A model generated the notes under the pieces. That model did no database searches. It worked only from the letters and a program-made list of their open reading frames with translations, and was not told the DNA's origin. From positions 5,146,001-5,210,000 of the forward strand of contig NZ_CP109327.1 in assembly GCF_035918155.1 (NCBI RefSeq): a stretch of DNA of 64,000 nucleotides, written 5' to 3'. The DNA is from Streptomyces sp. NBC_01591 (GTDB lineage: Bacteria; Actinomycetota; Actinomycetes; Streptomycetales; Streptomycetaceae). Made by a program: the position numbers and the translations under genes. Each line of letters opens with the position of its first letter. The first letter of the stretch is position 1. Below, one piece after another: positions 6,205 to 28,201 of the stretch.

Positions 6205-7431
6205 CTACGCCTTGGCCTCGCCCAGCAGCTTCTGGAGCCGCGAGACGCCCTCGACGAGGTCGTCGTCGCCCAGGGCGTACGAGAGCCGCAGGTAGCCCGG
6301 CGTACCGAAGGCCTCGCCCGGTACGACCGCGACCTCGGCCTCGTCCAGGATCAGGGCCGCCAGCTCGACCGAGGTGGCCGGGCGCTTGCCGCGGATCTCC
6401 TTGCCGAGCAGCTCCTTCACCGAGGGGTACGCGTAGAACGCGCCCTCGGGCTCCGGGCACAGCACCCCGTCGATCTCGTTGAGCATCCGGACGATGGTCT
6501 GCCGGCGCCGGTCGAAGGCGGTACGCATCTCGGCGACCGCGTCCAGGCTCCCGGAGACGGCGGCCAGCGCGGCGACCTGGGCCACGTTGGAGACGTTGGA
6601 CGTGGCGTGCGACTGGAGGTTGGTCGCGGCCTTGACGACGTCCTTCGGGCCGACGATCCAGCCCACCCGCCAGCCGGTCATCGCGTACGTCTTGGCGACA
6701 CCGTTGACCACGATGCACTTGTCACGCAGCTCGGGCACGATCGCGGGCAACGAGGTGAACTTCGCGTCGCCGTAGACCAGGTGCTCGTAGATCTCGTCGG
6801 TCAGCACCCACAGGCCGTGCTCGACGGCCCAGCGGCCGATCGCCTCGGCGTCGGCCTCGCTGTACACGGCGCCGGTCGGGTTCGACGGCGAGACGAACAG
6901 GACAACCTTCGTGCGCTCGGTGCGTGCCGCCTCCAGCTGCTCGACGGAGACCCGGTAGCCGGTGGTCTCGTCGGCCACGACCTCCACCGGGACACCGCCG
7001 GCCAGCCGGATCGACTCGGGGTAGGTGGTCCAGTACGGAGCGGGGACGATGACCTCGTCGCCCGGGTCGAGGATCGCGGCGAACGCCTCGTAGATGGCCT
7101 GCTTGCCGCCGTTGGTCACCAGGATCTGCGAGGCGTCGACCTCGTAGCCGGAGTCGCGCAGCGTCTTCTCCGCAATGGCGGCCTTGAGCTCCGGGAGCCC
7201 TCCTGCCGGGGTGTAGCGGTGGTACTTCGGGTTGCGGCAGGCCTCGATCGCGGCGTCGACGATGTAGCCGGGGGTCGGGAAGTCGGGCTCACCGGCGCCG
7301 AAACCGATCACCGGGCGGCCGGCGGCCTTGAGGGCCTTGGCCTTGGCGTCGACGGCGAGAGTGGCGGATTCGGAGATCGCACCGATGCGGGCGGAGACCC
7401 GGCGCTCGGAGGGGGAAGTTGCAGCGCTCAT
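6205..7431 (-). CDS. aspC: Class I/II PLP-dependent aminotransferase (aspartate aminotransferase type)
   Basis: A 408-residue fold-type I aminotransferase. Visible are the N-terminal [12 protein letters not shown] segment that contacts substrate, [13 protein letters not shown] for phosphate binding, SPSNPTG, the PLP Schiff-base lysine in [13 protein letters not shown], and the C-terminal RLSYA with the carboxylate-binding Arg. The family moves the amino group of aspartate or related acids to 2-oxoglutarate in the cytoplasm. The start is placed at ATG 7431 behind a GGGGG sequence; upstream in-frame codons are low-complexity. Its position beside tRNA-Trp and secE matches Streptomyces chromosomes. 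Confidence 0.9.
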
Positions 7432-7636
7432 GGCCCCCATGGTCCCAGACCGTGATCCCAGTCGGCGCAGGGGTTTCAGGGACCGGACACGACTCGGACA
7501 GCATGCGGACAACATGCGACCAGGAGTTGTCGGGAGCTATCTGTTCGACGCCGGGCCGTTGAACACGTACACTCACCTGTCGTTGGCCTTCACCAGCCGC
7601 ACTGTTCCTGCACCCGGGTCATCCGGGGAGATGCGG

Positions 7637-7642
7637 TAGGTT
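7637..7642 (+). promoter_or_regulatory. Probable -10 box of tRNA-Trp
   Basis: TAGGTT fits the Streptomyces TAGRRT -10 consensus and ends 14 bases before the mature tRNA. No convincing -35 is seen. Confidence 0.5.
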
Positions 7643-7656
7643 GGTGGAAACCACAA

Positions 7657-7729
7657 AGGGTCGTAGCTCAATTGGTAGAGCACTGGTCTCCAAAACCAGC
7701 GGTTGGGGGTTCAAGTCCCTCCGGCCCTG
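7657..7729 (+). tRNA. tRNA-Trp (anticodon CCA)
   Basis: 73 bases fold as a cloverleaf. The acceptor stem is AGGGTCG (7657-7663) paired with CGGCCCT (7722-7728), one G-U. The anticodon stem is CTGGT/ACCAG around loop CTCCAAA, so the anticodon is CCA at 7690-7692. The T-arm contains GGTTCAAGTCC. G73 is the discriminator base expected for tRNA-Trp. The 3' CCA is not encoded. Its place just before secE is conserved in Streptomyces. Confidence 0.97.
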
Positions 7730-7835
7730 CTACACACTCCTTCGCCAGGATGTGTGCGCATGTACGTACTTCTATGCACCGCCGTGCGGCTCCACCGGGC
7801 GCGGCACGGCCATGACCCGGAATCAGGTGAGAAGC

Positions 7836-8123
7836 GTGACGGACGCCGTGGGCTCCATCGACATGCCTGATGCCGAGGATGAAGTACCCGAGTCGAAGAA
7901 GAAGACCCGGAAGGGCGGCAAGCGCGGAAAGAAGGGCCCTCTGGGCCGCCTCGCGCTGTTCTACCGCCAGATCGTCGCCGAGCTGCGCAAGGTCGTCTGG
8001 CCGACTCGTAGTCAGCTGACGACATACACCACAGTGGTGATTGTCTTCGTCGTCGTCATGATCGGTCTGGTTACCGTGATTGACTTCGGATTCCAGCGGG
8101 TCATCAAGTACGTCTTCGGCTGA
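7836..8123 (+). CDS. secE: Preprotein translocase subunit SecE
   Basis: A 95-residue single-span subunit of the SecYEG channel. A charged, Lys-rich cytoplasmic N-terminus ([14 protein letters not shown]) leads into the conserved amphipathic helix [17 protein letters not shown]. One transmembrane helix follows (about residues 66-86). GTG 7836 is preferred to ATG 7812 because AGGTGAGAAG precedes it and the length matches other Streptomyces SecE proteins. It is followed directly by nusG, the usual secE-nusG pairing, with which it is probably co-transcribed. Confidence 0.93.
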
Positions 8124-8196
8124 TCCCGCGGAGGGCGCCTCATGGGCGCCCCTTTCGCATGTTCCACCCATTTGTATCCAGGAAGAAGCAGCCACC

Positions 8197-9099
8197 GTGT
8201 CTGACCCGAACCTGAACGACGCCGTCGAGCCGACGGCGGGCGCCTTCGAGTCCGCCGAGGACGAGCTCGACATCGTCGAGGCGGCGGACGCCGAGGAGCC
8301 GGACCAGGCCGAAGCTGCCGACGACGCCGCAGGTGAGCCCGCCGAGCAGGCCGCCCTGCACGTCGAGGACGAGGACGAGGAAGAGGCCGCGGAGGCCGAC
8401 GCCGACCCCGACCCCGAGAGCGACGAGGACGCCGAGGAGCCCGCCGAGGCCGACGAGGAGGAGGCCGAGCCGGCCGCCCCCGTCGACGCCGTCACGGCCC
8501 TGCGCGACGAGCTGCGCGGCCTTCCCGGCGAGTGGTACGTCATCCACACGTACGCCGGTTACGAGAAGCGCGTGAAGGCCAACCTGGAGCAGCGCGCCGT
8601 CTCGCTCAATGTCGAGGACTTCATCTACCAGGCCGAAGTGCCCGAGGAAGAGATCGTCCAGATCAAGAACGGCGAGCGCAAGAACGTCCGCCAGAACAAG
8701 CTCCCGGGCTACGTCCTGGTGCGCATGGACCTGACGAACGAGTCCTGGGGCGTCGTCCGCAACACCCCCGGCGTCACCGGCTTCGTGGGCAACGCCTACG
8801 ACCCGTACCCGCTGACCCTGGACGAGATCGTCAAGATGCTCGCCCCGGAGGCCGAGGAGAAGGCCGCCCGCGAGGCCGCCGAGGCCGAGGGCAAGCCGGC
8901 TCCGGCCCGCAAGGTCGAGGTCCAGGTGCTCGACTTCGAGGTCGGCGACTCGGTCACCGTCACCGACGGCCCGTTCGCGACGCTGCAGGCGACGATCAAC
9001 GAGATCAACGCCGACTCGAAGAAGGTCAAGGGCCTCGTCGAGATCTTCGGCCGCGAGACCCCGGTGGAGCTCAGCTTCGACCAGATCCAGAAGAACTAG
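8197..9099 (+). CDS. nusG: Transcription termination/antitermination protein NusG
   Basis: A 300-residue NusG. Residues 1 to about 105 form an extremely acidic Glu/Asp/Ala tail typical of actinobacterial NusG. The NGN domain follows ([21 protein letters not shown] onward, with PGYVLVRM and [12 protein letters not shown]), then a C-terminal KOW domain ([19 protein letters not shown]). NusG binds the RNA polymerase clamp helices and links polymerase to Rho or to the ribosome. The GTG start has AGGAAG 11 bases upstream. A classical terminator follows. Confidence 0.95.
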
Positions 9100-21110: not shown

Positions 21111-22154
21111 CTACAGGTAGTGCCGCAGATGGTGCAGCCGGGTCGGGACGTCGGGGTGGGTGGAGAGCAGTCGGGCAGGCGTCGACCCGCGCTCCATCCG
21201 TTCTCCTGTGACGGGGAGCGCCTTCTGCCGCGCCCGGATCTCGTTCGCGTGCATCGTCTCCAGCACCTCGGCCAGTTTCGGTGCGAATCCGAGTGCAGCG
21301 GCATGGCGGTCGGCACGCAGTTCGGCACGGCGTCCCACCGCCGCCGACAGATACGGAAGTACGAGAAGCATCGGAATCCCGTACAGGACCGCGGCGGCGG
21401 TGGAGGCGAGCCCGCCGATCGCGAGGAGCAGGACGCCGACGGCGAGGTAGACGGCACACCTGGCAGGCGTGACGAGGGAGCGGGCCATCGCGCGGAGGGC
21501 GCGCCAGGCCGCCCGGCCCGGCAGCCCGTACCAGTGGCCCAGCAGCGACGACCACGCATGACCGCCGGTGTGGTGGCCCAGCTCATGGGCGAGCACGGCG
21601 GCCAGCTGGCCGCTCGACAGCTGTTCCAGGGCGAACCGGGTGACCCCCACGATGTGGCCCGCGGCGGCGTACGCGTTGAGGTCGTCGCTCTCCTCGATCC
21701 AGAGCTGATACGACGCTCCGTCGACCCCGGCGATGGCTGTCACCTCGTGCCAGACCGGCTCCAGCCGTGCGGCCTCCTTGGGCATCGGGCGCCGGAGCCC
21801 CAGCAGGTAGCGGGCGAGCAGTTCCTCCGTGGGCCGGTGGAAGACCAGGGCGCCGGATGCCAGCCAGAGCGCGGCCGGTATCCAGAACGGAAGCCCGAGG
21901 CAGCCGTCCAGGACCGCGCCGACGAGCAGCACCACCAGCGTGTTCGTCAGGAAGGCAGGCAGTGCCAATGTCAGCCGTCCGAGTACGGTGATGTCCACAC
22001 GCCGCTGGTGCGCCGTGTAGTACACACGTCGGCCCGGCCCGTGCTCGTAGATCAAGTCATCGGGCGCGGGTGGGGCGGTGGCGGTCAGGTACGGGTCCGG
22101 GGGTGGTACGAACCCGTCGCCCGGGTCATGGGACTGAGGTTTCGGTGGATTCAT
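21111..22154 (-). CDS. M48-family membrane zinc metalloprotease
   Basis: A 347-residue integral membrane peptidase. It has two transmembrane segments near residues 56-105, the catalytic motif HELGH at 190-194, two more hydrophobic segments near 232-272, and the third zinc ligand Glu in RRAELRADRHA (E278). This is the HtpX/Ste24 (M48) plan, with the active site facing the cytoplasm. ATG 22154 is chosen because AAAGGA precedes it; ATG 22160 is possible. It is the last gene of the leftward block, 24 bases after the DUF5706 gene, so it is probably co-transcribed. Here it may process or remove the neighbouring membrane proteins (inference). Confidence 0.82.
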   Translation of the reverse strand: MNPPKPQSHDPGDGFVPPPDPYLTATAPPAPDDLIYEHGPGRRVYYTAHQRRVDITVLGRLTLALPAFLTNTLVVLLVGAVLDGCLGLPFWIPAALWLASGALVFHRPTEELLARYLLGLRRPMPKEAARLEPVWHEVTAIAGVDGASYQLWIEESDDLNAYAAAGHIVGVTRFALEQLSSGQLAAVLAHELGHHTGGHAWSSLLGHWYGLPGRAAWRALRAMARSLVTPARCAVYLAVGVLLLAIGGLASTAAAVLYGIPMLLVLPYLSAAVGRRAELRADRHAAALGFAPKLAEVLETMHANEIRARQKALPVTGERMERGSTPARLLSTHPDVPTRLHHLRHYL

Positions 22155-22178
22155 GGTCATCCTTTGGCGGGAGGAACA

Positions 22179-22688
22179 TCAGCCGAGGAGTAGCGAGGCG
22201 GGGAGCAGGACGGTGCCGACGGAGTAGGCGAGCAGCCCCACGCGTATCCACTGGTGCTTGCATACGGCGATCCGGCTGGTTTCGGTCAGGGCCGTGACGA
22301 GTGCCGTGGCCTGGGCGCTCTCAGTGGCGTCGAGCGCTTCCGGCAACCGGTTCTGTCGGGCGGCGCGCCGGATGTCCGCGAAGTAGGTGAGCGGGGCTCC
22401 GGGGACCCAGGTACTGCCGCGGTAGCGCGGGAGTATGGCCATCAGCATGGAGAGCAGCGCCGTCGCCAGCCCGCCGGTGCCCGCCCACCACAGGGCCGTG
22501 CCGGGGGAGGAGAGCGCGTTCGGTCGCCACTCGCTCCCAGCCAGCCAGCCGCTGATCACGCCTGCGGTCATGCCGAGCGCGGCAACCAGTACGGATGCCT
22601 TGCTGTCGGCTCGTGCGATCTCGGACCGCAGATCGAGGAGTAGCCGCGCCCCGGCATCGGTGTTCTGGATCGGTGGGCTGTCGGTCAT
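22179..22688 (-). CDS. DUF5706 / Pycsar-effector-like small membrane protein
   Basis: A 169-residue protein. LRSEIARADSKASVLVAALG near residues 20-39 matches the hallmark ADxKAS-LL of DUF5706, the transmembrane effector family (PycTM) of Pycsar cyclic-pyrimidine defence. Hydrophobic segments lie near 33-51, 66-88 and 149-168, with a cytoplasmic amphipathic stretch (YFADIRRAARQN) between. In Pycsar such proteins disrupt the membrane when cCMP or cUMP is made. The ATG overlaps the stop of the SPFH-like gene (ATGA), indicating translational coupling. A cyclase-like gene sits three genes upstream, which supports the assignment. Family assignment is from memory of the motif. Confidence 0.72.
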   Translation of the reverse strand: MTDSPPIQNTDAGARLLLDLRSEIARADSKASVLVAALGMTAGVISGWLAGSEWRPNALSSPGTALWWAGTGGLATALLSMLMAILPRYRGSTWVPGAPLTYFADIRRAARQNRLPEALDATESAQATALVTALTETSRIAVCKHQWIRVGLLAYSVGTVLLPASLLLG

Positions 22689-24310
22689 GTGCTGTGGTCC
22701 TCCTGGCCCGGCGCTCCTGCCACGTCCGTGGCCCGGGGCGTGTCCGATGTCCTCGGCGGGTTCGCAGCCCCGGGAGCGTCCGCAGGCTCGGCTGCGTCGG
22801 TCGCCCCACTCCGGCCGGCCGCTCCGGCGGCGTCCGCCGTCATGTCCTCGGCGGAGGCGGAGGCGGGCCGGGGGTCGGGAGATGCCGCGGCAGTCACAGT
22901 CCGTGCCTTCGGCACGCCGGTCCCGCCGGGTGCTCTGCGCACGTCTTCCGCACCGGCCGATGGCGTGGCGGTGCCCGTCGGCCTCAGAGGCGCGCTGCCA
23001 TAGCCCGGCGGCGGCTGCCAGCCCGGGAAGGGACTCGACGGGTCGCCCGTCTCCGGATCGGCCTTGCGGAGGGGCGTCCCATCGAGCCGGTGCACCTCCC
23101 GGCTGTTTGCCTCAATGCCGTCGGTCAGGTCGAAGTCCGGCCGGGACATGCTCCGCATGACCGCTTCCGGCGCCGCTCTCAGTGCGTCCTGCGGCATCGA
23201 CACGGTCAGCCGGCCTTCGGCCGTGCTCTGCGCGGTGACGCCGGGAAGATGCTGGTTCAGTACGTCGATCAACGCCTGGAGAGCCCTCTTCTTCGGTGCC
23301 TCCAACTCGTGGTTCTCCGCGCTGTCGCCCTGCAGCAGCTCGCCCGCCAGCTCCATCTGCGCCTGGATCATGTGTAGTTGGTCCTGGCGCAGGCTTGTCA
23401 CCACGAGCTTGGTGTCCTCGGGATGGTCGGCCAGATGGAGCGCCCATGCGCGGACCCCGCCCTGTTCCAAGTGCTTTTCGTAGAAGGCGATCTTTTCCGC
23501 GTTCACCTGCTGCAGCTCCATCTGCCGACGGGCCCGGTCGACCGCCTCCGTGTGCTGCCACTTCTGCTGCCGCAACCTCAGTTCGTGCTGCTGCTCATCG
23601 AATTCGGCCGCGCGCCCCCACTGCAGTGCGTCCTGCTCCCTGACGCGCCGGTCGATCGCAGCATCGTGCTCCCGGCCCCGCCGCTCGGTGTGGACCTGCT
23701 CGGTGGCCGCATGGTCGATGGACCTCATTCGCCGTACATGGTCGATGGCTTCCTGGTCCCCGCGCAGCCGTACGGTCCAGGCCACGGCGAGACCCGCTCG
23801 CGTGCCGAGTGAACCCTGTGCGCGTACTTCCCGCAGCAGTGCCTCCTCGGCCTCCGCACTCCGGGAGGCGGGGTAGCGGCGGGTGACGGCCCGGGCCGAC
23901 TGTTCCAGCTCGCCGATCAGCAGTCGTGGTACGTCACGGTGTCGGCTCGCCACGAACAGCGCGGGATCGACGACCTGCCACGACAGTTCGACGACCACTC
24001 CGAACTCGAAGGCGTCATCGTTGCTCGGCAGGCCGATCTCCTCGCGTACGGGATGGACCCCCATGTCGACCTCGTACACCGAGGTGTATCGCTTCGCGGC
24101 GGCTCCGGCCCTGGTGGGGCGGACCGGCGGGAGGTAGGTTTCGTACGAGCCGTCCCGGGCCGAGAAGACCAGGGCGTGGTCGATGCGGGTGAGCGGGCGG
24201 CGGGCGAATCCGAAGCGGGACAGTTGCCGGACCGTGACCACCGGGTCGGACAACCGCGTTCCGCGGTCGGCCCGTTGGTCCCAGTCGGGTGCTCGTCGGA
24301 ATTCGGGCAT
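22685..24310 (-). CDS. SPFH/Band 7-like coiled-coil protein (function unknown)
   Basis: 541 residues starting at ATG 24310 behind AGGAGAG. Residues about 30-200 look like an SPFH/prohibitin-type domain (DAFEFGVVVELSWQVVDPAL and a following helix ELEQSARAVTRRYP). Residues about 205-300 are a charged Gln/Arg/Glu-rich coiled coil, then EKIAFYEKHLEQGGVRAWAL and a helical region. The last 110 residues are a low-complexity Ala/Pro/Ser/Thr tail. There is no clear transmembrane helix. SPFH proteins oligomerise into membrane-associated rings, so this may scaffold the adjoining DUF5706 protein and M48 protease. It lies 35 bases after the P-loop gene. Confidence 0.6.
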   Translation of the reverse strand: MPEFRRAPDWDQRADRGTRLSDPVVTVRQLSRFGFARRPLTRIDHALVFSARDGSYETYLPPVRPTRAGAAAKRYTSVYEVDMGVHPVREEIGLPSNDDAFEFGVVVELSWQVVDPALFVASRHRDVPRLLIGELEQSARAVTRRYPASRSAEAEEALLREVRAQGSLGTRAGLAVAWTVRLRGDQEAIDHVRRMRSIDHAATEQVHTERRGREHDAAIDRRVREQDALQWGRAAEFDEQQHELRLRQQKWQHTEAVDRARRQMELQQVNAEKIAFYEKHLEQGGVRAWALHLADHPEDTKLVVTSLRQDQLHMIQAQMELAGELLQGDSAENHELEAPKKRALQALIDVLNQHLPGVTAQSTAEGRLTVSMPQDALRAAPEAVMRSMSRPDFDLTDGIEANSREVHRLDGTPLRKADPETGDPSSPFPGWQPPPGYGSAPLRPTGTATPSAGAEDVRRAPGGTGVPKARTVTAAASPDPRPASASAEDMTADAAGAAGRSGATDAAEPADAPGAANPPRTSDTPRATDVAGAPGQEDHST

Positions 24311-24345: not shown

Positions 24346-26517
24346 TCAGGGATGAGTCAGGACGGCCAGTAGCCGGCCTGTCACGGGCGGGGGGTCGGTG
24401 CCGTCCTCGCCGGGCATCGTCCGCAGGAGATGGCTGAGCCGCTGGTGCTCCGACGGCGTGGTGACGAGTGAGGGCAGCAGCGCGGCGAGCGCCCACTCCG
24501 TGCCGGGATCGTGGTCCGCCGACAGCACCCAGCGGCGCAGCACGTCGAGGGCGTCCCGGGTGTGGCCGCGGCTCCCCAGGGCGGTGCGCCACAGCTCGAC
24601 GATGCCGGTGGCGGCCGGTGTCCGCGCGGCCGACGCTCGCGCGTACCAGGACAGAACGAGCGGCTGCCCATGGCGCTCGTCCTGCTCGGTCCGACGGCAG
24701 GCGCTGATGAAGCCGCCGAGCGCGAGGTCGGTCGCCGGACGGTCGTCGTGCAGCGTCCTGAGCAGCCCCGCGAGCACGTCCTCGCCCGCTGGTGACAACA
24801 GCAACAGCTCTACGGACTCGGCGAGTTGCCCCGAAAGATCCGTGTCGGGCTCCGGCTGTCCTGCCTGGTGCCGGGCCGCCGAGCGCAGCGCTGCCAGGGT
24901 CTCGGAGGGGCGTTCCGGCCCGATCAGCCCATGGGCGCGGATGGCGACCCAGCGCAGCGGCGACTCGTCGCTCTCGCACCAGGCGTCGAGGATGCGCGGC
25001 ACGTTGGGAGTGCCCAGCACGTGGGTGAGTGTGAGCGCGTTGACGGCGACGAGGCGGTGCCGGTAGAGGTGTGAGGAGGCCCATGGCTCGATGACCAGCG
25101 CCATGGCGGACGGCAGATCGGTATGGGCGAGCACGGCGACGGTGGAGGCGGCGCGGGTACGCACGAACGGCCGTCCGTCCCCGGCCAGCCGTTGCAGCCA
25201 GTGCACGAGTGCGGGCCGTGCCGAGGGGTGCCCGGTCCATATCTCGCGCAGCAACACGAGTGGGGCCCGCTCGTCCCGGTAGGCGGCCTTCACCTGTCGG
25301 ACCGGACCCCACTCGGTGGGCTCCTCGGCCTCGAACCGCCGGGCACGGGCGAGCTGGAGCCGCTTGCCGATGTGCGTGCCGAAGACCGGGACGGTGGCGG
25401 ACCGCAGCCCGCTCTCGATTTCGTGGAGGAAGACGTAGAGCAGATCGCTCAGCTCCGCCGTCAGGGCGTACGGGCCCTCGTCGAAGGCGGCCAGGGCGAC
25501 GAGGAATGCCTTGTCCCGCAGGTGCAGCACGGTCCCGTCGTCCTCGAACCACTCCTGGACCTGGTTCTCCAACGCGATCAGGGAGAAGTCCCCGAGCTCA
25601 GCGGTGTCGGCCTCCCCGGTCGCGTACCTCGCCAGGAGCCGGGCGAACTCGGCGGCCTCGCGCGGCTGATGGTTGCGTTCGAGGAACGCGGTCACGGCCG
25701 GCAGGGAAAGCAGCTCCGGCACATGGTCCTCGCCCACCAGCACCCCCAGGTGCGCGGCGAGGACATCGCCCGGCGGGGGAGCCTGCCAGCTCACCACCGG
25801 TACATCCTCCAGCAGGGCCGTCGGCCCCACGGTGATCACCAGATACGCGTCCTCGCCCAGTTCCTTGCGGGCAGCCAGCAGATCCGCCTCCCGCAGCGGT
25901 CGGCCCGGCTCGGTGATCAGATCGCAGAGGACATGGCCGGTTCGGCCGTCGCGTGTCTCGCCGCCACCGAGACCGGCTGTGAGCTGTCCGGGGGTGGTGT
26001 CCCGGCCGATCGCCTGGACCGGATCTGCGCGGAGCCGGTGCAGCAGCATGAGTGCGGCGGTCCGCCGACCCGCGAAATACGGGCCCGAGACCACCAGGAC
26101 ATGCTCTTCGCGCAGCCGGTCGACCAACGCCTCGAAGTCGGCGCACGCAGGCACGAAACAGGCCGACAGCTCCTCCAGGGTGGACTGTGCGATCTCGCCC
26201 GAGGTGTGGAGTGCGGAGGAGGCGCCGAACTGGTAGATGATCTCGGTCCTGTCGAGCAGGATGTCCCCGTAGAAGGTGCCGCCGCCGATGCCGTGGTTGA
26301 TCCCGCCGAAGACGCCCCCGCCGACCTGGGCGCCGTCCCCGAATCCCATGGTCCGTGGGGTGTGGTTCTCCAGGTCCCGCCGGGCTGCCCAGGCGGGCTG
26401 CGGCTGGTCGGTCTCCTCGGTTGTCTCCCCGTCGGCCTGGCGGCCGTCCTGCGCCTCGGAAGACTGGTCGCCCCCTGTCGAGGGCTGGGAGCCGTGCGGT
26501 TGTTCCTCGGCGCTCAC
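24346..26517 (-). CDS. Large protein with N-terminal glycine-rich motif, degenerate P-loop and helical repeats (STAND-like)
   Basis: 723 residues. After a disordered acidic N-terminus, G67-I86 carries GGVFGG-I-NHGIGGGTF-Y-GDI. The C-terminus of the upstream cyclase-like protein repeats it. Then LVVSGPYFAGRRTAALMLLH (142-161) resembles a Walker A with the Lys replaced by Arg (R151), followed by HVLCDL as a Walker B-like strand. Residues about 350-720 are Leu/Ala-rich helices (e.g. VRTRAASTVAVLAHTD) like HEAT or ARM repeats. The plan (short motif, degenerate NTPase, repeat sensor) recalls STAND/NLR proteins. The GTG start overlaps the cyclase stop by 4 bases. Function inferred; no catalytic domain is seen. 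Confidence 0.65.
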   Translation of the reverse strand: MSAEEQPHGSQPSTGGDQSSEAQDGRQADGETTEETDQPQPAWAARRDLENHTPRTMGFGDGAQVGGGVFGGINHGIGGGTFYGDILLDRTEIIYQFGASSALHTSGEIAQSTLEELSACFVPACADFEALVDRLREEHVLVVSGPYFAGRRTAALMLLHRLRADPVQAIGRDTTPGQLTAGLGGGETRDGRTGHVLCDLITEPGRPLREADLLAARKELGEDAYLVITVGPTALLEDVPVVSWQAPPPGDVLAAHLGVLVGEDHVPELLSLPAVTAFLERNHQPREAAEFARLLARYATGEADTAELGDFSLIALENQVQEWFEDDGTVLHLRDKAFLVALAAFDEGPYALTAELSDLLYVFLHEIESGLRSATVPVFGTHIGKRLQLARARRFEAEEPTEWGPVRQVKAAYRDERAPLVLLREIWTGHPSARPALVHWLQRLAGDGRPFVRTRAASTVAVLAHTDLPSAMALVIEPWASSHLYRHRLVAVNALTLTHVLGTPNVPRILDAWCESDESPLRWVAIRAHGLIGPERPSETLAALRSAARHQAGQPEPDTDLSGQLAESVELLLLSPAGEDVLAGLLRTLHDDRPATDLALGGFISACRRTEQDERHGQPLVLSWYARASAARTPAATGIVELWRTALGSRGHTRDALDVLRRWVLSADHDPGTEWALAALLPSLVTTPSEHQRLSHLLRTMPGEDGTDPPPVTGRLLAVLTHP
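26271..26313. repeat. Copy 1 of a 43-base repeat encoding the shared glycine-rich peptide
   Basis: Within the P-loop gene. It is identical to 26561-26603 except at one base (26300 A versus 26590 G). The two copies are 290 bases apart and encode most of the motif NHGIGGGTF and flanks on the minus strand. Confidence 0.9.
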
Positions 26518-27296
26518 CGGCGGTCTCCCCGGCCTCCGTCGCCGAGATGGATGTCTCCGGAGAAGGTGCCGCCGCCGATGCCGTGGTTGGTCCCGCCGAA
26601 GACACCTCCGTTGACTGTGGCGCCGCCGAAGTCGAAGGCCTGGGCCGGTTCCTGCGGGGTGGGCGGGGCAATGCCGGAGACCGACGGGGCGTCCCCCTTC
26701 CCGCTCGCGGGGTGCGGGCGCTCACTCGGAAGCGGACCGTGCAGCCACGCAGCGAGCGGACCGTTCTTGCTGTCCACCGTGACGGAGCGGAACTCCTCGG
26801 CCGGAACGCCGGCGTGGCTGTGCCGTACAACGCCCCGGTAGACCGGATCGGACACGCACAGCGCGAAGTCGTCCGGGCGCTCCCGCAGCGCCGTCCGCAG
26901 CAACTCCGTGTCCAGCAGTCTGCACGCGTGGTTGAGATCGCTGCCGACCCATCCGTCGAGCCGGTCCACGGCGACGTACCCCGAAGCGACCACTCCGCGA
27001 AGCCGCATCTGAGCCGAGGCGGAGGCTCGCCGGTTCTGGCTGCGCAACTGGGCCGGCACCTCGGTCAGCAGCGCCCGCAGCAGGGCGATCACCGAGCAGT
27101 TGGCGTCGATCAACTCCATCACGGAGTCGCCGCGGTCCGCCCGCCTGCGCCGGGTCTCGTCGATCCCGGCGGCGAGCAGTGCCCGGTCGGTGAGGTCATA
27201 GAGCATGCGGCGCAGATACGCCTGCTCGACATCGTCCCGCTCGCTGTACTTCTCGATGTCGAGCAGCAGGATCGTGCTGTTCACGGGATCGTTCAT
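26514..27296 (-). CDS. Class III nucleotidyl cyclase-like protein with C-terminal glycine-rich motif
   Basis: 260 residues, no signal or membrane segment. ILLLDIEKYS (metal Asp D13), RADRGDSVMELI (second metal Asp D57) and GSDLNHACRLLD (N122 and R126, the Asn-x3-Arg that stabilises the transition state) occur in the order and spacing of class III cyclase domains, so it could be active. The nucleotide made is unknown; Pycsar cyclases of this superfamily make cCMP or cUMP. A Pro/Ala linker leads to GGVFGG-T-NHGIGGGTF-S-GDI (230-249), the same peptide as in the next gene. It is first of a five-gene overlapping series, with a Crp/Fnr gene upstream. Confidence 0.72.
   Translation of the reverse strand: MNDPVNSTILLLDIEKYSERDDVEQAYLRRMLYDLTDRALLAAGIDETRRRRADRGDSVMELIDANCSVIALLRALLTEVPAQLRSQNRRASASAQMRLRGVVASGYVAVDRLDGWVGSDLNHACRLLDTELLRTALRERPDDFALCVSDPVYRGVVRHSHAGVPAEEFRSVTVDSKNGPLAAWLHGPLPSERPHPASGKGDAPSVSGIAPPTPQEPAQAFDFGGATVNGGVFGGTNHGIGGGTFSGDIHLGDGGRGDRR
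26561..26603. repeat. Copy 2 of the 43-base repeat
   Basis: At the 3' end of the cyclase-like gene; it differs from 26271-26313 by one base. It encodes the C-terminal copy of the shared glycine-rich peptide. Confidence 0.9.
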
Positions 27297-27451: not shown

Positions 27452-28201
27452 CTACGGAGGGAGCGGGGCTTCGTGGCGGACGACCGGTCGGGCAGAGTCC
27501 TGCGCCCGGGCGATCCGGCGGAGCGCGTCCGGCCGCACGATCACCATCGCCCGCCGCCCTGTCAGTACGATGCCCCGTTCGCGCAGGTCCTTCAGCAGCC
27601 GCTGGACCATTTCCCTGGAGGCACCGACCGCCCCGGCCAGCTCCTGTTTGCTGAGCGGTATGTCGAGTTCGATGCCTTCATCCGTACGGCCGCCGTGGGT
27701 GTGCGCCAGATCCAGCAGCAGAACGGCGAAGCGCTCCCGTACCGTCATCGCCGCGAACTCCAGGCTGCGCCGATCCGCAGCGCGCGTACGGTCGGCGGTC
27801 AATGCCAGGAGCGTGAGCGAGACCTTGGCGGAGCCTGCCACGAACGCGCGGAACTTCTCGTGCGCCACGACCACGGCCCGCACGGGGGAGAGCGCGGTCA
27901 CCGTCGCCGAGCGTGGCCGGCCGGTCAGCGCGGCCGACTCGCCCACGATGTCGCCGGGGCCGCGCAGGGCGTGCAACGCCTCGTAACCGTTCGGCGCGGA
28001 CGTGGTGACCTTCGTCCAGCCGTTGACGATCAACAGGACGTACGCGGACGGTTCGTCCTGCCTGAGCAGCGGGGCCCGGGAGGCGAAACTCAGCTCGCGG
28101 CCCAGTCCGAGGAGGGACACCCGGTCCTCGCGCTCCAGGCGGGCGAGAAAGGGCACCCGGTCGTCGAGCCCGTCGCCATCGGGTATGTACGCCGCCGCCA
28201 T
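27452..28201 (-). CDS. Crp/Fnr-family transcriptional regulator
   Basis: 249 residues: an N-terminal cyclic-nucleotide-binding fold (about 15-135) and a C-terminal winged helix (SKQELAGAVGASREMVQRLLKDL, about 185-207). The phosphate-binding cassette is recognisable as GESAALTGRPRSATVTAL, with the Glu and Arg that contact the cyclic phosphate in Crp, so a cyclic nucleotide is a plausible ligand. There are no Fe-S cysteines of the Fnr type. It is encoded 155 bases upstream of a cyclase-like gene on the same strand, with a Crp-like operator in between, so it may sense the product of that cyclase (inference). Confidence 0.88.
   Translation of the reverse strand: MAAAYIPDGDGLDDRVPFLARLEREDRVSLLGLGRELSFASRAPLLRQDEPSAYVLLIVNGWTKVTTSAPNGYEALHALRGPGDIVGESAALTGRPRSATVTALSPVRAVVVAHEKFRAFVAGSAKVSLTLLALTADRTRAADRRSLEFAAMTVRERFAVLLLDLAHTHGGRTDEGIELDIPLSKQELAGAVGASREMVQRLLKDLRERGIVLTGRRAMVIVRPDALRRIARAQDSARPVVRHEAPLPP

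Follow-up and report, generated by a model that had tools for sequence, protein, structure and literature searches.

The question raised by this locus is why one protein of Streptomyces sp. NBC_01591 ends, and its neighbour begins, with nearly the same glycine-rich peptide. The locus lies in a stretch of 64,000 nucleotides (contig NZ_CP109327.1, positions 5,146,001 to 5,210,000; hereafter the window, in whose numbering coordinates are given) of a genome of 10.25 Mb. It encodes, on the minus strand, a class III nucleotide cyclase of 260 aa (26514..27296), composed of a core (residues 1-190), a disordered linker and the C-terminal motif, and a STAND-like protein of 723 aa (24346..26517), composed of the motif, a degenerate P-loop region and HEAT-like repeats. 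We consider it somewhat probable that these peptides constitute a pair of amyloid-signalling motifs, which wires the STAND-like sensor to the cyclase with a Pycsar-like output.

The peptide pair and the proteins that carry it

The effector-side motif GGVFGGTNHGIGGGTFSGDI occupies cyclase residues 230-249 (26550..26609, minus strand) and has matched counterparts in orthologous pairs; the sensor-side motif GGVFGGINHGIGGGTFYGDI occupies residues 67-86 of the STAND-like protein (26260..26319, minus strand). The two copies are identical at 18/20 residues and 55/60 nt, as the first-pass annotation had pointed out for the peptide. Each is enclosed by one copy of an 83-nt direct repeat, with the sensor side in copy 1 (26253..26335) and the effector side in copy 2 (26543..26625); the copies are 86% identical and lie 290 bp apart from start to start. 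When the whole genome was searched, each protein recovered the motif of its partner as a separate match (E 3.6e-5 and E 4.4e-5), and a degenerate GGxNHGIGG pattern occurred with 0 mismatches only at the two motif sites and with 2 mismatches at 3 more. Because the matches are reciprocal and the pattern is limited to two sites, the similarity is not due to chance. Chance resemblance is ruled out by these searches together with the pairing tests and the motif restriction described below, and a genome-wide repeat is ruled out by the pattern and motif searches.

The effector shows a class III cyclase fold with both metal aspartates, which bears out the earlier description of it as cyclase-like, and its closest named relatives are Streptomyces cyclases with 92% and 94% identity. 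At E<=0.1, the window cyclase matched no PADLOC family and none of the window proteins matched an EAD. The Pfam matches of 28 and 30 cyclases (E<=1) included no amyloid-motif family, which is weak evidence for a motif so short. Absence of a family from the lists of fold matches excludes no family either. Generic amyloid predictors are also reported to perform poorly on motifs of this kind (PMC8086366).

For the partner, which the first-pass annotation had called a P-loop, STAND-like protein, the assignment stood only in part. The nSTAND3 (E 0.044) and HEAT_2 (E 4.9e-5) matches of the window protein are both under the Pfam cut-off. Among ten distant homologues scanned, nSTAND3 was detected at E<=0.1 in nine, one of which (L129; L-numbers are locus labels and G-numbers genome labels in our comparison set) alone exceeded the cut-off (29.7 bits vs 27.2); the tenth, L119, had none. 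The P-loop-like segment GPYFAGRRT (26059..26085, minus strand) has Arg where a Walker A motif has Lys, and this residue, R151, is present in 41/41 aligned proteins. Across the window clade and the named loci introduced below, Arg was found at this position in 113/114 pattern matches and Lys in 1/114 (L268), and the Lys is kept in the distant loci L102, L105, L110, L112, L113 and L121. L268 (Streptomyces cylindrosporus, 6501-8300) thereby combines the sole Walker A Lys of the 114 with the sole motif-less operon of 76.

Covariation and swapping of the pair among loci

The comparison covered the window clade, for which 40 of the 44 top-scoring places elsewhere were fetched (4 on short or end-cut contigs were omitted), and 80 named Streptomyces loci, some of them truncated at contig ends; these partly overlap the other genome set, and the two sets are not independent. 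A distant set of 20 cyclase and 20 STAND places was hand-picked among weaker matches, and its rates are those of a non-random sample. L145 and L159 duplicate L057 and L116 and were omitted from the pairing test sets; L137 is without a cyclase.

Retention of the motif in neighbouring orthologous pairs had been set beforehand as a check. The results showed a matched pair in 75/76 named loci with a STAND gene: 73/76 were matched at shuffle p<=0.01, two were recognised on reading (L208, with masked bases, and L236, with a shifted frame), and L268 lacks both copies. The motif varies strongly among species, and within the tail it is the motif that is conserved and not the linker. Changes occur on both sides: L039 has GGGTVSGDQNNVTGNQ, L035 one additional Gly and L069 FRGxNxGVxAQHV in cyclase and sensor alike. 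Over 41 loci, the mean score was 98.4 with the own partner vs 69.8, with Wilcoxon p values that are too small, since kin loci were treated as independent. The own partner scored above the mean of relatives in 33/33 loci at 50-60% core identity, in 40/41 and 40/41 in the bands between, in 31/39 at 80-90% and in just 8/18 at >=90%. Masking of the motif block brought the own-partner score to 23.0 vs 23.7 for shifted partners (41 loci), and the similarity is thus confined to the block.

The peptide is also exchanged as a whole. L101 and L128 carry the unrelated peptide VKGAQVSGGHVGTLTN, matched within each locus, and further types are likewise matched within their loci: GDxVxGDKxV-type (L105), FxGPxSFGGHAAGRDV (L121), FGSGDAAxT (L138), GKGxNANVSGxDQTINQ (L158), GGASHRAxxxGxVNAxGRDQ (L162) and YGGDHxE (L148). 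Shuffle p<=0.01 was reached by 67/84 loci and by 22/32 divergent representatives, and 20/32 representatives outscored unrelated heads at p<=0.05. In the two-system genomes G019, G044 and G192 the pairs differ between systems, although the pair of L110 scores no higher than its non-cognate combination. The host genome itself has a second cyclase-STAND system near 4.597 Mb (L291, G000:C1:4592500-4601500), with a different pair of its own (score 80).

One motif type was searched in 26/41 clade genomes and gave 29 matches, 28 of them in cyclase or STAND genes, which makes the motif nearly restricted to these two genes; 10 searched genomes gave no match, and the motif types there differ from the query. 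The sole outside match (G040:C1:2346664, E 0.0023) lies at a locus that matches none of six operon profiles. This single match, at a site lacking the operon genes, argues against the notion that the two motifs do not bind each other but share a third binding partner (for instance Band-7 or another membrane protein). Such binding would suit the conservation of further operon genes, but this partner would need to vary along with each motif type, and homotypic pairing already accounts for the same sequence on both sides. We regard it as very improbable.

How the two copies stay alike may be read from their codons. Where cognate copies have the same residue, they also use the same codon in 76.3% of cases (1555/2039; 93/102 loci reach the score limit), compared with 69.5% for non-cognate pairs and 66.8% for orthologous cyclase copies, both at 80-90% core identity. 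Because the cognate rate exceeds the other two, DNA-level copying between the motif copies probably occurs, and occasional gene conversion between copies 290 bp apart fits these data; concerted motif evolution is reported in fungal HET-S/NLR pairs (PMC4518210). Part of the excess, however, is shared codon use, because non-cognate relatives at >=90% identity reach 75.1%. That gene conversion alone keeps the repeats alike, with a functionless peptide, draws on the same codon excess but is barely credible in view of this 75.1%, the constant placement at two termini and the conservation of the motif where the linker is not conserved. It also sits badly with L268, which lacks both copies, and with 4 plasmid cyclases lacking a STAND gene, which are tail-less.

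These 4 cyclases have no STAND, Band-7 or PycTM gene within 7 kb and end within about a dozen residues of the core; 10 plasmid records have a cyclase match, 4 of which were examined. In a midpoint-rooted tree the plasmid cyclases are sister to the window clade (100/97), followed by the motif-bearing L101 (96/97); loss of the tail along with the partner is the simpler reading, because the tree nests the tail-less plasmid cyclases next to motif-bearers. These solo cyclases (L141-L144; Streptomyces virginiae, S. globisporus and strain ADI95-16) have an additional N-terminal extension and lie near toxin-antitoxin or transfer genes.

In the pairing test sets, 21 cyclases had no detected STAND gene; where a locus has 1.5-kb flanks, a partner may lie outside. 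Of these, 6 belong to an EAD1-TIR clade, 1 has another C-terminal domain, 2 have short tails, 3 have unmatched tails, 7 have motif tails resembling another neighbour and 2 have motif-like tails and no partner. Two relatives scanned from the first group (L152 and L164) are EAD1-cyclase-TIR fusions, and four further relatives join this clade with a similar C-terminus. L294 (323-2769) has CATRA-N/C domains in a frame that also gives the cyclase match, while the adjacent frame of 395 aa carries PycTM; it has neither a STAND gene nor a tail motif. The motif thus occupies the place of a known adaptor in some relatives. In L103, L104, L106, L107 and L108 the motif is followed by a longer C-terminal extension, and a similar motif is found in a large neighbouring protein; the resemblance is weak in L103 (score 50, third best), and four of the five large partners, when scanned, gave no Pfam family and one sub-threshold match. 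The tails of L109 and L115 weakly resemble small neighbouring frames, and for the motif-like tails of L163 and L166 no partner was found within the short loci. Two other cyclase relatives (L171 and L292) carry long terminal His/Pro/Asp-rich repeats (HPDPHHPD), which possibly bind metal.

A further alternative concerns the nature of the contact. The motif could be a homotypic docking tag that makes an ordinary beta-strand or beta-solenoid contact in a 1:1 or small complex, with no open-ended amyloid and with the biology otherwise the same. All the pairing evidence fits a docking tag equally, and the spacing of the Gly turns would suit a short solenoid. The only match of the cyclase alignment among PDB sequences is a bactofilin (profile positions 200-262), but its E value of 0.92 is that of chance, and kinship of the tail with bactofilins was discarded. 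On the other side, a short, terminal, homotypic motif on a disordered linker that evolves in concert is the pattern published for amyloid signalling (PMC4518210, PMC7889193), and we judge the docking tag unlikely.

The operon and the proposed signalling course

The first-pass annotation had stopped at the pair, and it is likely that the neighbouring Crp, Band-7, PycTM and M48 genes, absent from it, give the pair an output. The gene order on the minus strand is Crp-like regulator, cyclase, STAND-like, Band-7-like, PycTM and M48 peptidase. The cyclase follows the Crp gene after a gap of 155 nt and overlaps the STAND-like gene by 4 nt; the Band-7 stop and the PycTM start also overlap by 4 nt, with 18 nt between PycTM and M48. 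PycTM, a Pycsar-type membrane effector (22179..22688, minus strand; PF18967 E 3.7e-17, 63.1 bits vs a cut-off of 27.2; PADLOC PycTM E 3e-9), is the third gene after the cyclase in this operon. The neighbourhood is headed by a Crp/Fnr-family regulator (27452..28201, minus strand; PF00027 E 9.3e-18, HTH_Crp_2 E 5.6e-17) with a cyclic nucleotide monophosphate (cNMP)-binding domain. Its residues G87, E88, R97 and S98 are invariant in 41/41 aligned proteins, and we take these G-E and R-S residues to belong to the cNMP pocket. The remaining members are an SPFH/Band-7-like protein (22685..24310, minus strand; likely start MPEF at 24310) and an M48 metallopeptidase (21111..22160, minus strand; PF01435 E 3.1e-22). 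The window Band-7-like protein itself has zero Pfam matches and is assigned through its homologues, of which L122, L124, L125 and L127 exceed the Band_7 cut-off and L117 is below it.

This arrangement is conserved. Every one of the 40 orthologous loci has Crp, cyclase, STAND and Band-7 genes, and M48 was found in 39/40 and PycTM in 33/40; the 80 named loci contained Crp in 76, STAND in 76, Band-7 in 75, M48 in 64 and PycTM in 63, and the 4 without STAND terminate at or near contig ends. In the distant set, cyclase and STAND genes are adjacent in 32/40 loci, whose cyclases are about 20-40% identical to that of the window. Of these 32 loci, 28 contain Band-7, 25 Crp (sometimes on the opposite strand) and 22 PycTM, with PycTM placed between Crp and cyclase in L122 and L124-L127. 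M48 was found in 0/40 distant loci. The seven orthologous operons without a recognisable PycTM (L042, L047, L051, L058, L060, L061 and L062) may have a replacement effector.

The location of the operon raises the possibility that it serves normal Streptomyces development or stress signalling, not phage defence or cell death. The window clade lies at a stable chromosomal rpoC-rpsL site, either marker being present in 74/80 named and 38/40 fetched loci and in 0/40 distant ones; a Crp regulator heads the operon; and no phage record has a cyclase match. However, PycTM, the EAD1-cyclase-TIR fusions and the CATRA-N/C protein beside PycTM are modules of conflict systems, and the motif is strongly variable between species. 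Window-type cyclases are moreover patchy in the genus, being found at E<1e-40 in at least 57 places in at least 56 of 295 genomes, the host included (8 candidates scored per genome); in a class-wide sample a cyclase match occurred in 56/296 genomes and 21/114 genera. We find a developmental or stress role in place of defence somewhat unlikely, though the least so of the alternatives.

Returning to the amyloid-signalling pair, we infer a course of events that extends to the amyloid state, the trigger, activation by clustering, the identity of the nucleotide and the defence role. At rest, the cyclase tail would be an unstructured linker ending in the motif. Upon a trigger, the STAND-like protein would oligomerise, and its N-terminal motifs would align and seed a cross-beta assembly, which the cyclase tails would join via homotypic templating. 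The templated tails would gather the cyclase cores, and crowding would turn synthesis on, because the active sites of cyclases of this class lie at the dimer interface; for two PycC cyclases, a head-to-tail homodimer with interfacial active sites is described (PMC11224242). The co-encoded PycTM, a protein reported to disrupt membranes (PMC11224242), would read the cyclic nucleotide and launch a Pycsar-like abortive response; the Crp-type regulator would probably read it too, and the Band-7 and M48 proteins would act at the membrane. The in-step change of the peptides in sensor and cyclase suggests, as far as sequences can tell, a prion-like switch for a cellular alarm. In an extended form, which we hold only tentatively, this would be prion-gated second-messenger immunity: the STAND-like sensor would activate the cyclase by amyloid templating, the peptides would be interchangeable, insulated addresses, and DNA-level homogenisation would keep them matched. 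With insulated addresses, several circuits could therefore run in one cell.

A number of findings weigh against this interpretation. The window protein is only weakly assigned to STAND, and the Arg that replaces Lys in its Walker A disfavours ordinary ATP-driven switching. PADLOC PycC models match only 1/30 cyclases (best E 0.013), and PycTM is undetected in 7/40 orthologous and 10/32 distant cyclase-STAND loci. Of the divergent representatives, 10/32 are unpaired at p<=0.01 (L110, L114, L117, L118, L120, L122, L123, L126, L130 and L154) and 12/32 do not outscore unrelated heads at p<=0.05; no match is visible in L293 despite its STAND gene, and cyclases without STAND can keep a tail (7 with a match in another neighbour and 2 without a partner, of 21). 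The fixed rpoC-rpsL location is unlike a typical mobile defence island. Finally, the pairing is a result of sequence comparison. Overall, the earlier proposal of an amyloid-signalling pair is supported in part: matched motifs lie at the C-terminus of the effector and the N-terminus of the sensor, are conserved in orthologues, covary and are swapped in step, and the amyloid element of the proposal keeps the strength stated at the outset.

Comparison with known systems

In accounts of immunity, amyloid signalling and cyclic-nucleotide alarms usually figure as distinct branches, and this operon appears to join both. If so, a self-assembling peptide relay with a diffusible messenger as output would add amplification to an all-or-none switch. 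The specificity of amyloid templating could also be studied with the many matched, swapped peptide types, which naturally supply candidate orthogonal pairs. Bacterial amyloid pairs have been described with Bell, CHAT and TIR effectors, and PMC7889193 leaves their outcome open in the passages relevant here; our proposal would bear on what such pairs drive in filamentous bacteria. Judged by titles, abstract openings and passages, none of the papers listed joins an amyloid motif to a bacterial cyclase, the effector lists of Dyrka et al. 2020 being outside this scope.

As in the bacterial amyloid signalling sequence (BASS) pairs of NLR proteins and their effectors (Dyrka et al. 2020, as described in PMC7889193, PMC8086366 and PMC12261475), the C-terminus of an effector and the N-terminus of the adjacent sensor share a short motif of many types in filamentous actinobacteria. 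Unlike the effectors reported there, the effector here is a second-messenger cyclase and not a Bell, CHAT or TIR protein, and the sensor is nSTAND3/HEAT-like with a degenerate P-loop, a comparison made by description. HET-S/NWD2 of Podospora and its HRAM relatives share the adjoining effector and STAND receptor with matching motifs evolving in concert; according to PMC4518210, however, that system is fungal, has a pore-forming HeLo effector with the motif duplicated on the effector side, and is proven to form amyloid.

The nearest parallels on the enzyme side are Pycsar and the adaptor domains. Like Pycsar, described in PMC11224242 as PycC with PycTM or PycTIR, the operon co-encodes a class III cyclase and PycTM; unlike that cyclase-receptor system, it adds a motif-matched sensor, Band-7, M48 and Crp, and its cyclase has diverged beyond the reach of the PycC profiles searched. 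As reported for EADs (Kaur et al. 2020) and bacterial Death-like domains (2021; PMC7159879, PMC8195603), copies of an adaptor are carried by a protein of an NTPase system and by a neighbouring enzyme, cNMP cyclases among them; EADs are described as small domains, whereas a motif of about 20-30 residues seems to serve here, and relatives of the cyclase do carry EAD1. By analogy with these systems, we propose that clustering of the cyclase by templated tails would be a natural union of amyloid pairs with the dimer-interface active sites of PycC.

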